From a virus, in IMG/VR virus record IMGVR_UViG_3300037882_001541, positions 1 to 44,622 of that record: a stretch of DNA of 44,622 nucleotides. One strand, given 5' to 3'. A model generated the notes under the pieces. The model searched no databases, was not told the DNA's origin, and was given only the letters and a program-made list of their open reading frames with translations. Shown one piece after another: positions 11,061-40,178 of the stretch (position 1 is the first letter of the stretch; each line of letters begins with the position of its first letter). The position numbers and the translations under genes were made by a program.

Positions 11061-11492
11061 TTACAAATCCCATTCCGAATCGCCATCATCCCATGTACTC
11101 AACCCACTATCCCAAACTGTGCCTAAAGGAGGAGAAGAAAGTGATACTGGTGCGCTTTCAAGTGGTGCCCGTTTACCGTATTCATAATAATAGAGGTTGT
11201 GCGTGACGGCCATATCTTCATAGGTAGGCCGTGGTGTGCTTCCATTTTCTTGTAAAAAAAACAATTCTCCGGGCGGCAAAAGAATGTTCTTGAACCGAAA
11301 AGTGAGGCCAAAATTTTTAACCATTTTTACGTTTGTCAAAATAGGCTCGTCATCCGCCGTGTTCAAAGACAATGACCAGTAGCCAAACCTTTCGTTCCAC
11401 AGAACACGCACAATATAAGGGTTACCGCTTAACTCCACGTTAAGACGCTGGTCTGTGGTATCTGGTGTAAGTGGAACGACAAAAAAAGACAT
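11061..11492 (-). CDS. Baseplate plug protein, Pam3 gp18-like
   Basis: A 143-residue protein. Start ATG 11492 (MSFFVVPLTPD) is preferred over a start nine codons earlier inside the upstream gene. The pattern QRLNVELSGNPYIVRVLWNE, then GYWSLSL, fits the small baseplate plug domain described for cyanophage Pam3. It follows the Dit-like gene and precedes the hub gene, as in that phage. Confidence 0.82.
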   Translation of the reverse strand: MSFFVVPLTPDTTDQRLNVELSGNPYIVRVLWNERFGYWSLSLNTADDEPILTNVKMVKNFGLTFRFKNILLPPGELFFLQENGSTPRPTYEDMAVTHNLYYYEYGKRAPLESAPVSLSSPPLGTVWDSGLSTWDDGDSEWDL

Positions 11493-29723: not shown

Positions 29724-29752
29724 TTGACGAAACGGTACAATGTACCTATATT
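29724..29752 (+). promoter_or_regulatory. Strong early promoter with palindromic operator
   Basis: TTGACG (29724-29729), exactly 17 bases, then TATATT (29747-29752). The spacer ends with the perfect odd palindrome GGTACA-A-TGTACC (29734-29746), a likely operator where a repressor would block polymerase. It drives the four small rightward genes starting at 29801 and lies back to back with the terminase promoter. Confidence 0.75.
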
Positions 29753-30323: not shown

Positions 30324-30551
30324 ATGAAACCTGAACCAGAGAAAAATTCTATGCCTACGCCATCGGAGATACGCCAATACCGTAAGGCCTTAAAAATCAC
30401 TCAAAAGGAGGCCGCCGCGCTTATCGGGATTAAATCAAGCGACACCTGGAGATCGTGGGAGCGGCCTCAGCATCAACCGGGGGCGCGGCGAATGCCAGAA
30501 TGCAAGTGGGAATATTTTAAGGTTAAGGCTGCTTGTTTTAACGCTGCTTAA
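30324..30551 (+). CDS. Small helix-turn-helix DNA-binding protein
   Basis: A 75-residue protein; ATG 30324 is the first start after the upstream stop, and ATG 30351 (MPTPSEIRQYRKAL) is a possible alternative. Residues about 12-60 form an XRE-like HTH (EIRQYRKALKITQKEAAALI then SSDTWRSWERP). The Q-K-E-A-A-x-L-I helix and the W-R-x-W-E segment match short phage regulators of this type. It is the only HTH candidate in its operon and may act on the 13-bp palindrome near the promoter. Confidence 0.78.
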   Translation: MKPEPEKNSMPTPSEIRQYRKALKITQKEAAALIGIKSSDTWRSWERPQHQPGARRMPECKWEYFKVKAACFNAA

Positions 30552-32501: not shown

Positions 32502-32723
32502 TTACCCCCTCTCCCCATTGTTACCCACAGGGGCGGACGCGCCCCCAGCGTTATGAGGCGCGGGGCTTTCTGCACTACTGATAACGCGCTGGTACTCCTC
32601 AACAATCAGGTTCCTAATGTAGGATGACCTGTTGCCGATTCCTGATTTATTCGTGAGATAGTCCATCTTTTTCAAGACAGATTCTGTGCATCGTAACCCG
32701 ATTGTTGTGCAATTTTTGTTCAT
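32502..32723 (-). CDS. Ribbon-helix-helix DNA-binding protein
   Basis: A 73-residue protein; ATG 32723 follows AAAGGAAA with good spacing. Residues about 6-48 have the RHH pattern: a short strand TTIGLRCTES, then helices VLKKMDYLTN and NRSSYIRNLIVEEYQRV. The C-terminal 25 residues are Ala/Gly/Pro-rich and disordered. It is the first gene of a leftward operon and lies next to a symmetrical divergent promoter, so autoregulation there is likely. Confidence 0.75.
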   Translation of the reverse strand: MNKNCTTIGLRCTESVLKKMDYLTNKSGIGNRSSYIRNLIVEEYQRVISSAESPAPHNAGGASAPVGNNGERG

Positions 32724-32752: not shown

Positions 32753-32784
32753 TTGACAATGCCTTTTTCTTTGGTTAATGTCAA
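32753..32784. promoter_or_regulatory. Face-to-face divergent promoters with inverted -35 boxes
   Basis: Plus strand: TTGACA (32753-32758), 17 bases, TAATGT (32776-32781). Minus strand: TTGACA (32784-32779), 17 bases, CATTGT (32761-32756). The two -35 boxes form an inverted repeat and each -10 overlaps the opposite -35, so only one polymerase could bind at a time. Predicted leaders are about 26-28 bases to ATG 32816 (plus) and ATG 32723 (minus). Confidence 0.6.
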
Positions 32785-32815: not shown

Positions 32816-33148
32816 ATGATTAAAAAACCTACAAAAGACGCGAAAGAATTTTTCTTCACCCTTAGCGAGGCACTTTCTGAAGAATATGTAAATTACCATC
32901 GTGCCGAAGCGATTAAATTTAGAATTGATGTTGATTACAAATACGAAGAGCCAGAGGAAGATGTTGGTTTTTCGGGTGGATTCACGCCAGATATTGGCAC
33001 TTTACACATTGAGGGTTTGCCTCAATACGACGGCACCTATGCTGACACGAATTTTTCTGGGGAAAATAAGGAAAAATTAGCACTACATTTAGGAATGGCG
33101 ATTATTAACTCAATCCTCGAAAACATAGAGGCGCAAGTAAATGGCTAA
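32816..33148 (+). CDS. Hypothetical acidic protein
   Basis: A 110-residue protein from ATG 32816, with GGAG upstream. It is acidic with a central beta-rich part (AIKFRIDVDYKYEEPEEDVG, GTLHIEGLPQYDGTYADTNF) and a C-terminal helix. The last eight bases overlap the next small gene. The pattern is not one I recognise. First gene of the rightward recombination operon. Confidence 0.78.
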   Translation: MIKKPTKDAKEFFFTLSEALSEEYVNYHRAEAIKFRIDVDYKYEEPEEDVGFSGGFTPDIGTLHIEGLPQYDGTYADTNFSGENKEKLALHLGMAIINSILENIEAQVNG

Positions 33149-33260: not shown

Positions 33261-33265
33261 ATGAC
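33241..33265. repeat. 25-bp direct repeat, left copy
   Basis: Identical to 33988-34012 over all 25 bases. It spans the last codons of one gene, the AGAAAGCCA motif, the TAA stop and the ATGAC start of the next. The two copies lie exactly 747 bases apart, the full length of the pentapeptide gene between them. Confidence 0.95.
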
Positions 33266-34007
33266 TAGAGAGCTCTTAGCTGAAATTTTCTTCGAGCACA
33301 AAAAATGGCTGCGTGATGATGGTGGCAAGCGTGCCGATTTGAGTTATGCCGATTTGAGCCGTGCCAATTTGAGCGGTGCCGATTTGAGCCGTGCCAATTT
33401 GAGCCGTGCCGATTTGAGCGGTGCCAATTTGAGCGGTGCCGATTTGAGTTATGCCAATTTGAGCGGTACCGATTTGAGCCGTGCCAATTTGAGCGGTGCC
33501 AATTTGAGTTATGCCAATTTGAGCGGCACCGATTTGAGCGGTGCCAATTTGAGCCGTGCCAATTTGAGCCGTGCCAATTTGAGCCGTGCCGATTTGAGCC
33601 GTGCCAATTTGAGTTATGCCGATTTGAGTTATGCCGATTTGAGTTATGCCGATTTGAGCGGTACCGATTTGAGCGGTGCCAATTTGAGCCGTGCCAATTT
33701 GAGCGGTGCAAAAATAAATTACCAGATCGAAGATGGTTTACTTTTACGGGTCTCTTGCGCTGCGTTATCAAGAGACGACGCGCTTGAAATGCGCACATGG
33801 CATACTTGCGAGACAACGCATTGTATTGCTGGTTGGGCTTGTCACCTTGCTAAAAATGGCAAGGAACTTGAGGGGGCACACGGCACACAGATTGCTGGAT
33901 TACTGCTGCTTGGCGCAGAGGCGCACAGCCATTTTTTTGACCACAACGAAACAGCAAGGCAATGGCTGCAGTCCATCGTGGATGCGGCAGAACAGAAAGC
34001 CAAATAA
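33261..34007 (+). CDS. Pentapeptide-repeat protein with C-terminal accessory domain
   Basis: A 248-residue protein. Residues 1-24 are a charged N-terminus ([19 protein letters not shown]). Residues 25-149 are 25 uninterrupted pentapeptides of the form A(D/N)LSX with X being Y, R or G, predicting a rigid right-handed quadrilateral beta-helix. Residues about 155-248 form a separate domain with [20 protein letters not shown] and a hydrophobic [13 protein letters not shown], a domain often attached to pentapeptide arrays in phages. DNA mimicry, as in MfpA and Qnr, is one known function of such helices. Here function is unknown. Start has AGAAAGCCA instead of a Shine-Dalgarno. Confidence 0.9.
33333..33707. 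repeat. Tandem 15-bp repeat array within pentapeptide gene
   Basis: Twenty-five consecutive 15-base units, all close to GCC-RAT-TTG-AGY-NNN. Variation is limited to G/A in codon two, AGC versus AGT in codon four, TAT/CGT/GGT/GGC in codon five, and GCC versus ACC in codon one. Codon use is almost uniform across units, pointing to recent expansion or ongoing homogenisation by slippage or recombination. Confidence 0.95.
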
Positions 34008-38574: not shown

Positions 38575-38877
38575 TTAAACGCCAGCAAGGGCGGTGAAGG
38601 ACTTCACGGGAATATAATAATCTACCAATTTGTGTGTGCCGCACACAGAGCAGCACATAGCCGTTTGCGTGTTTTGTTTAAGGATTTGCCCATAAGCCAT
38701 TTCCTTTATTAAGTGATGCTCCATAAACACCCAGCGATGCTTGCAATCGGCTTTCCTGATTCGCGCCATTTCCGCCCGGTGGTTCATATACTTGCAGCCA
38801 AGCCAGATAATGCACGCGGCAATAGCGGCAATCACTTGCGCCAAAAACAATAGGACGGTGATGTTATCTTCAGTCAT
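38575..38877 (-). CDS. Membrane protein with zinc-ribbon-like end
   Basis: A 100-residue protein. Residues about 7-28 form a transmembrane helix (VLLFLAQVIAAIAACIIWLG). The soluble part has C45-x-H47 (ADCKHRW) and a later MCCSVCGTHK cluster, which together could bind zinc. It overlaps the upstream gene as ATGA. Function unknown; an anchored cytoplasmic adaptor is plausible. Confidence 0.7.
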   Translation of the reverse strand: MTEDNITVLLFLAQVIAAIAACIIWLGCKYMNHRAEMARIRKADCKHRWVFMEHHLIKEMAYGQILKQNTQTAMCCSVCGTHKLVDYYIPVKSFTALAGV

Positions 38878-39392
38878 ACATAGTACCCATCTTTTTGCAT
38901 CTTGATAAACAGCTTCTCAGCTTGTTTTATTGCGCTCTCCACCTGCTTTTCAAAGCCGGGATTATCCTTGTTCATAGCGGCCAGCATCCGGCTTAATAAT
39001 TGCCAATAGATGCTTCCCTCTGGAATATGGAGAATGTCATCCTCAATGAGTTTGTTTGTAAAGCTCACTAAAACTGCCATCATTTTTGGCAGGTTTGCTT
39101 TCTCGGCAAAAACATCATCAATATGCTTGGCCACAAGCCTTCTCACGCGCCTAGTAATGTTTCCCACCTTGTCGCTTGTCAGTTTCTCTACAGGCTCAAG
39201 AAACGCCTTTTCCGCCTCATTTAAGCACTCAAAATAGAACTCCAAATGTGCCGCCACCAATGCACGGTATTCATCCGTCATCGGCTTTTGCGCCTCATCC
39301 CGAAAATGTCCAACACCCGAAAGCGTGATAGATAACAGCACTCCTGCAGGGAACATAATCTCCACGCGGTCAGTGTCAGTTTTGTATAGCAT
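38874..39392 (-). CDS. Hypothetical helical protein
   Basis: A 172-residue protein from ATG 39392, one base after the preceding stop; the earlier in-frame start lies in the upstream gene. It is helical and charged with a short hydrophobic stretch near residues 13-25 (MFPAGVLLSITLSGVG). The C-terminal part has regular helices (FEKQVESAIKQAEKLFIKMQ). No family recognised. Confidence 0.72.
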   Translation of the reverse strand: MLYKTDTDRVEIMFPAGVLLSITLSGVGHFRDEAQKPMTDEYRALVAAHLEFYFECLNEAEKAFLEPVEKLTSDKVGNITRRVRRLVAKHIDDVFAEKANLPKMMAVLVSFTNKLIEDDILHIPEGSIYWQLLSRMLAAMNKDNPGFEKQVESAIKQAEKLFIKMQKDGYYV

Positions 39393-39393
39393 T

Positions 39394-39519
39394 TTATGTG
39401 TCTTTGTACGCGAAGAAAATAAGCACCAATGCAACCAAAAGGGCAACCCAACTGTAGCTCGTGTCTTCTGGTAGGTTCACGCCGTAAAACTGCACTTGGC
39501 GGTAGAAAAACGTATCCAT
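39394..39519 (-). CDS. Tiny C-tail-anchored membrane protein
   Basis: A 41-residue protein, MDTFFYRQVQFYGVNLPEDT then a transmembrane helix WVALLVALVLIFFAY near the C-terminus. GAGAG lies about eight bases before the ATG. It begins just after the zinc-finger gene stop and ends one base before the next ATG, so it fills what would otherwise be a gap in the operon. Confidence 0.6.
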   Translation of the reverse strand: MDTFFYRQVQFYGVNLPEDTSYSWVALLVALVLIFFAYKDT

Positions 39520-39520
39520 T

Positions 39521-39712
39521 CTATTTTCTCTCACAGTGAACAGCGGGTTTTTCATTAACCTTCGGCACCCCATAACGCCACGTCCAATCGAACGTACAGG
39601 CTACAGACGTGCGCTTGTTGCAGTGCGGGCACAGGTCATCCCAAAATGACGCGATATGCCCCTCAGGCCATTTGCCGCCATGTTTATTGGCGCAGGGTGA
39701 GCAGATTTTCAT
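39521..39712 (-). CDS. Small zinc-finger protein
   Basis: A 63-residue protein with two CxxC pairs, CSPC (4-7) and CPHC (28-31), and further Cys/His residues, predicting one zinc ribbon. Tryptophan-rich (WDDLCPHCNKRT, FDWTWRYG). It overlaps the RHH gene stop as ATGA. Probably a nucleic-acid or protein-binding adaptor; no family recognised. Confidence 0.72.
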   Translation of the reverse strand: MKICSPCANKHGGKWPEGHIASFWDDLCPHCNKRTSVACTFDWTWRYGVPKVNEKPAVHCERK

Positions 39713-39876
39713 TTGATGTCATCCTCTTTGGGAATTTCCACCTTCGGGATTTTAATCCCCATATCAGTTAAGGCCTCCTCGATAATTTCAGAGGCAGTGC
39801 GTTTGCTTGCCTTCGCAACATTCCGCAAAGTCTTAAGCTGCCCTTCATGTAGTGTGATGTGGATTGCTTTTCTCAT
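39709..39876 (-). CDS. Ribbon-helix-helix (Arc-type) regulator
   Basis: A 55-residue protein: strand MRKAIHITL, then helices EGQLKTLRNVAKASKR and TASEIIEEALTDMG, the classic Arc/MetJ layout. ATG 39876 is chosen; the longer open frame runs across the divergent promoter and is rejected. It is the first gene of the leftward operon, beside three 11-bp-phased ATGGCG repeats that could be its operator. Confidence 0.78.
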   Translation of the reverse strand: MRKAIHITLHEGQLKTLRNVAKASKRTASEIIEEALTDMGIKIPKVEIPKEDDIK

Positions 39877-39892
39877 TCGTGAAACTTTCTTG

Positions 39893-39935
39893 TTGACTAT
39901 GGCGTTTTTATGGCGCATATATGGCGGCAAGTCAA
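39893..39935. promoter_or_regulatory. Face-to-face divergent promoters with three phased repeats
   Basis: Plus strand: TTGACT (39893-39898), 17 bases, CATATA (39916-39921). Minus strand: TTGACT (39935-39930), 17 bases, CATAAA (39912-39907). Between the facing -35 boxes, ATGGCG occurs three times at 39899, 39910 and 39921, spaced exactly 11 bases, about one helical turn. Leaders of about 25 bases lead to ATG 39954 and ATG 39876. Confidence 0.65.
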
Positions 39936-39953
39936 TAAGAAAAGGAGCGAAAA

Positions 39954-40178
39954 ATGCAAGAATGGCAATCAGCAGAAACGGCCCCCAAAGACGGAAGGCG
40001 GATACTTGGCGCGGCCTACATTGTGCCAAGCGCGGAAGCCACACGGAACGGCGCAACGCCATTTTGGGACGTGCAAACGACACGCTTTATCGCCGGAACG
40101 TGGGCACAAATTCTCGGCGGAAAGATTGATTATTGGTTGCCAATTCCGGCATTAGCCACCGTCGAACAGAAAGATTAA
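39954..40178 (+). CDS. DUF551-like protein
   Basis: A 74-residue protein with the DUF551 layout: MQEWQSAETAPKDGRRIL at the start and YWLPIPA near the end. AAAGGAG lies seven bases before the ATG, the best ribosome site in this operon. First gene after the divergent promoter. Short proteins of this kind are widespread in phages; function unknown. A second, shorter relative lies at 40993-41124. Confidence 0.8.
   Translation: MQEWQSAETAPKDGRRILGAAYIVPSAEATRNGATPFWDVQTTRFIAGTWAQILGGKIDYWLPIPALATVEQKD

Follow-up and report, generated by a model that had tools for sequence, protein, structure and literature searches.

RHH proteins commonly repress their own promoters, where they bind short DNA repeats as dimers placed next to each other. 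In phage P22, two dimers of the Arc repressor occupy half-sites ∼11 bp apart within a promoter; the operator spans 21 bp and its half-sites are inverted. Direct repeats are the targets of centromere-binding RHH proteins. The RHH dimers of RelB read hexad repeats on one face of the DNA, with cooperative binding and autoregulation (PMC2812701). The F55 protein of SSV1, an RHH protein of 55 amino acids, recognizes tandem repeats of 11 nt at several promoters of the virus, its own among them (PMC9608457, PMC5569661). Bidirectional sigma-70 promoters, as described by Warman et al., have one common −10 element and transcription starts that lie 7–25 bp apart, usually 18 (PMC10268837). The locus described here, a compact divergent promoter region with phased repeats beside a gene for an RHH-like protein, appears to have its closest known analogues in Arc of P22 and F55 of SSV1.

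The window, that is, the whole stretch of DNA that was analysed, is the virus record IMGVR_UViG_3300037882_001541 (44,622 bp; GC content 48.8%). It carries an endolysin gene at its left end, leftward genes for terminase, portal, and tape measure proteins (12–29.7 kb), a gene for a DnaD-like loader (31.5–32.4 kb), and rightward genes for a RecE-like exonuclease and RecT (34.0–36.1 kb). The exonuclease and RecT genes adjoin a pentapeptide-repeat protein gene (33261–34007) that contains long DNA repeats with a 15-bp period. No match to a tyrosine integrase was found anywhere in the record. The top-scoring promoter match of the window, TTGACG-17-TATATT, is located at 29724–29752, in the divergent gap that adjoins the gene for the terminase small subunit; its spacer carries the palindrome GGTACAATGTACC, a likely operator. 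A gene for a small XRE-type helix-turn-helix regulator is present at 30324–30551. Its homologue in the nearest whole-phage relative found, a 10-kb contig (L169) whose terminase is 74% identical, is situated upstream of the terminase.

The site of interest sits among small genes at the right end of the record, in a 77-bp gap (39877–39953) that separates a leftward gene for a 55-aa protein, referred to here as RHH1 (39709–39876, minus strand), from a rightward gene at 39954. RHH1 is the first leftward gene and is followed on the same strand (38575–39712) by genes for proteins of 63 (with a CxxC motif), 59, 190, and 100 aa; the start of the 63-aa CxxC protein gene overlaps the RHH1 stop. Family matching provided no function for the 59-, 190-, and 100-aa proteins, and neither the 190-aa protein nor the DnaD-like gene has relatives in viral contigs. 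The first rightward gene (39954–40178, plus strand) is preceded by a Shine–Dalgarno sequence, AAGGAG, at 39942–39947 and encodes a 74-aa protein that has no family match; small genes continue after it to ∼43.7 kb. Both genes that flank the gap are supported as coding by their coding bias, which is 0.20 bits/codon for RHH1, within the range of the genes of this phage, and 0.28 bits/codon for the rightward gene.

Much of the gap lies within the region 39886–39956, which reads TTTCTTGTTGACTATGGCGTTTTTATGGCGCATATATGGCGGCAAGTCAATAAGAAAAGGAGCGAAAAATG. Three plus-strand copies of ATGGCG, at 39899–39904, 39910–39915, and 39921–39926, follow one another at steps of exactly 11 bp between two TTGACT boxes, just as the original prediction had described. 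The spacers between the copies, TTTTT and CATAT, differ almost totally from each other, in contrast to the identical hexamers. In the 44,622 bp there is a single match to ATGGCG-N5-ATGGCG-N5-ATGGCG, and none of 100 shuffles has one, even with two mismatches allowed; for any hexamer present three times at an equal step of 7–23 bp, Markov sequence gives an expectation of only 0.05 per window. Other equal-step hexamer triples in the window are found in the pentapeptide gene (∼33.3–33.7 kb), in the coding repeats of the DnaD-like gene near 32.02 kb, and at 11,067. The analysis thus supports a triple repeat that is not due to chance, is phased at 11 bp, and lies within a compact divergent promoter region. 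The repeats span the predicted −10 boxes and so overlap the predicted promoter of RHH1, a layout expected of autoregulatory operator repeats of the Arc, F55, and omega type. The likeness to F55 extends to a viral RHH protein of 55 aa and to an 11-nt tandem motif, matched here by the 11-bp steps of ATGGCG; the two differ in that F55 belongs to an archaeal virus with archaeal promoters and controls lysogeny at many sites, whereas a single array is present here, and the comparison between F55 and RHH1 is one of size and layout, not of sequence. Arc is likewise a small phage RHH repressor, but its half-sites are inverted and the three copies at 39.9 kb are direct.

Each TTGACT box forms the −35-like element of a predicted promoter. 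The rightward promoter would consist of the box at 39893–39898 and, after a 17-bp spacer, a weak −10-like CATATA at 39916–39921 (three of six positions as in the consensus), which overlaps the first base of the third repeat. The leftward promoter would consist of the box at 39930–39935 on the minus strand (AGTCAA on the plus strand) and, again after 17 bp, a weak −10-like CATAAA at 39907–39912 (four of six positions), which overlaps the second repeat. The opposed TTGACT boxes enclose both −10 boxes and were found where the original prediction had put them. Its description of the promoters as face-to-face is misleading, as they overlap yet would fire apart, with predicted starts at ∼39928 (rightward) and ∼39900 (leftward); each polymerase would run outwards, and the arrangement is therefore overlapping-divergent and not convergent. 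A further proposal, that the two promoters exclude each other, finds no clear support: two polymerases may exclude each other at this site, but published bidirectional promoters show competition only if one direction is strong (PMC12825309). Neither promoter passes a consensus promoter scan, and in a position-weight scan of the window the promoters with CATATA and CATAAA come 439th and 159th, places that chance could produce in a 77-bp gap. With weak −10 boxes and negative scans, the case for the promoters depends on the opposed pair of −35 boxes, the spacing of 17 bp on both sides, and the gene context, namely start codons at 39876 for the leftward gene and at 39954, with AAGGAG, for the rightward gene.

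The −35 boxes are the inner parts of a larger dyad centred on 39914 (39886–39942), which had escaped the original prediction. Its 13-bp arms, TTTCTTGTTGACT at 39886–39898 and AGTCAATAAGAAA at 39930–39942, are complementary at 12 of 13 positions and reach beyond the −35 hexamers, and both −10 boxes are symmetric about the centre. Matching positions number 17 of 28. When the region was shuffled 1000 times, four shuffles reached this value, but over a whole window chance yields a dyad score this high ∼7 times. The locus resembles bidirectional sigma-70 promoters in its pseudo-symmetric sequence and its predicted divergent transcription; it differs from them in that the −10 boxes are separate rather than one shared symmetric element and the predicted starts are ∼28 bp apart, outside the 7–25 bp range. 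The perfect pair TTGACT-N31-AGTCAA occurs once in the window. Perfect opposed TTGACW pairs 25–60 bp long number two, with 0.41 expected, and at least two such pairs are present in 6.5% of random sequences; both pairs of the window lie in short divergent gaps adjoining RHH-like genes.

Assignment of RHH1 relies on profile and structural comparisons. The protein matches PF01402 (RHH_1) at E = 0.0025 and 18.2 bits, under the gathering cut-off of 20.5, and PHROG 3180 (Arc-like repressor) at E = 0.00097, a marginal match; distant matches include HicB-like and antitoxin RHH domains. A monomer model (pLDDT 84) has helices at residues 11–23 and 28–38 after an N-terminal extended segment, and the N-terminal strand of the RHH fold is not formed in it. 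Compared with solved structures by Foldseek, the model best fits the RHH domain of PutA (TM 0.62/0.75; rmsd 1.1 Å), with CopG, ParG, Arc, and further RHH proteins ranked lower; all these matches have E-values of ∼1 and above, which are not significant. The gene beside the repeats had been called an Arc-type RHH gene; the weak profile matches and the two-helix model bear out an RHH-like protein, but the curated cut-off is not reached. Because the PF01402 score falls slightly short, a small gap for a 55-aa protein, RHH1 is accepted as RHH-like on sequence and model evidence and is not termed a proven member of the family.

Relatives of RHH1 were found neither in viral contigs, nor in 84,980 species genomes, nor in phages, and the one match in plasmids is a chance match not worth counting. 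The operator likewise lacks relatives in all four collections. The triple-repeat pattern is present at 17 loci in viral contigs, none with matching flanks and many of them exact tandem arrays or coding sequence, and the flanked pattern does not occur in species genomes. As no relatives of RHH1 or of the putative operator were found, conservation speaks neither for nor against the model. Triple ATGGCG copies at 11-bp steps are found in phage loci L093 (8749–8776 and 8931–8958), L095 (3417–3444), and L085 (2224–2251), directly downstream of related ATPase genes that end in VNNAKRP or VNPSKRP. The triples of L093 and L095 are AATGGCGC-like, and in L093 the repeats lie upstream of an ssb-like gene. 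These triples may be iterons or an operator, and their context is unrelated to that of the 39.9-kb site.

A second divergent promoter region, also absent from the original prediction, is present at 32753–32784 (TTGACAATGCCTTTTTCTTTGGTTAATGTCAA), where opposed TTGACA boxes with 17-bp spacers lie between a leftward gene for a second RHH-like protein, RHH2, and a rightward gene at 32816. RHH2 (73 aa; 32502–32723, minus strand) is the first leftward gene of this pair and is situated upstream of the DnaD-like loader gene. It has weak matches to MobC_2, MazE-type antitoxin, and NikR models; its own model (pLDDT 54) is too uncertain for a fold search, and no relatives were found in phages. The region measures 32 bp end to end compared with 43 bp at 39.9 kb, exactly 11 bp less. 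Aligned over their length, the two regions give a local score reached by three of 2000 shuffles, and both carry TTGACWATGSCKTTTTT with one mismatch, while the ATGGCG repeats are absent from the 32.7-kb region. The stretch common to both after TTGACW (8 of 11 positions) is not significant alone, since five other site pairs among 1891 in the window equal it, and the combined motif built on both regions, TTGACWATGNCNTTTT...GTCAA, matched 65 loci, nearly all coding and none beside an RHH gene. An operator motif shared by the two regions is thus only suggestive. An inverted repeat, TTTTCTTTGGTT / AAGCCAAGAAAA (12 nt, 6-nt loop, 83%), overlaps the TTGACA promoter region and could be the operator for RHH2. 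The L169 contig has no similarity to either RHH gene or their control regions.

Taken as a mechanism, the 77-bp gap would be the common control region of two divergent small-gene phage operons. Host RNA polymerase would bind in either orientation on near two-fold symmetric sequence, with the −35 boxes outside and the −10 boxes inside, and the operator would consist of the three ATGGCG copies, which run across both −10 boxes with a helical turn from one to the next. RHH1 would most likely bind this operator in the form of two or three neighbouring dimers that share a face of the DNA, with predicted cooperativity, and once bound would occlude both promoters, so that its own synthesis and the rightward operon are regulated together. 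The chances that RHH1 is such an autoregulatory repressor of both operons, with binding to the repeats as predicted, appear evenly balanced. Autorepression combined with regulation of the rightward operon explains the locus best, because the exact 11-bp steps of ATGGCG across the −10 boxes fit the scheme known from RelB and F55, although the relO hexads of RelB are contiguous and paired in palindromes, and RHH antitoxin autorepressors have a toxin partner of a kind not found beside the 39.9-kb site. Counted against it are the weak −10 boxes, the Pfam score below cut-off, the non-significant Foldseek E-values, and the extended dyad, which is a competing operator. A broader proposal, judged quite doubtful, is that two RHH repressors each act on their own symmetric overlapping divergent promoter, the first at the central replication/recombination junction near 32.7 kb and the second at an accessory junction near 39.9 kb. 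Between them they would make up a two-tier switch, with the direction of expression set by how the polymerase is oriented and by RHH occupancy.

The extended dyad allows a different reading of the operator, in which the divergent promoter is regulated but protein is bound at the outer dyad (TTTCTTnTTGACT arms), or RHH2, the XRE-type regulator (30324–30551), or a host factor does the binding, and the ATGGCG copies are secondary. The extension of the arms past the −35 hexamers to 12 of 13 positions agrees with this reading, and the opposed TTGACA boxes and TTGACWATGSCKTTTTT of the 32.7-kb region, without ATGGCG, fit a factor common to both regions. The shared stretch is not significant by itself, however, the arms partly coincide with −35 boxes that the polymerase already explains, and of the two features the direct repeat is the less likely to arise by chance; this reading is considered rather unlikely. 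The placement of an RHH1 operator on the repeats also competes with a symmetric bidirectional promoter that has no dedicated repeat operator, the repeats being an 11-bp slippage duplication or neutral and the RHH protein acting elsewhere. A 32-bp opposed −35 pair, TTGACATTGTGCCA...CATAAAGTCAA, is conserved in related phages (L203, 2088–2119; L212, 7044–7075; L230, 2649–2680) in divergent gaps without an RHH gene, which speaks for an ordinary promoter layout. Bacteria commonly have bidirectional promoters (PMC12825309, PMC10268837), and the −10 boxes of the 39.9-kb site fall mostly within the spacers between the repeats. The diverged spacers beside exact hexamers are unlike the remains of a recent slippage, and the presence of three exact copies spaced by one helical turn points to selection, so that a promoter free of any such operator is judged unlikely.

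The distant matches of RHH1 to HicB-like and antitoxin RHH domains suggest yet another role, in which RHH1 serves as an antitoxin or in partition, with the repeats as its operator or a centromere, as in RHH toxin–antitoxin systems and ParG/omega. No ParA-type ATPase (PF13614) match is present in the record and family matching revealed no toxin family among the genes beside RHH1, which makes this role very improbable. An origin or centromere function of the 39.9-kb site was also considered; neither ParA nor a tyrosine integrase was matched.

The observation behind the original prediction is real and its interpretation is plausible but unproven. The 39.9-kb site looks like a neat and fairly ordinary phage gene switch, of a known kind but in a new instance. 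If the autorepressor model is true, it would represent a very small self-contained operator, in which one 55-aa protein, 28 bp of repeats, and a 43-bp promoter control two operons. It would provide a test case both for RHH dimers reading direct repeats at one helical turn and for repressor action on overlapping divergent promoters, and even then it would leave the understanding of phage regulation unchanged.
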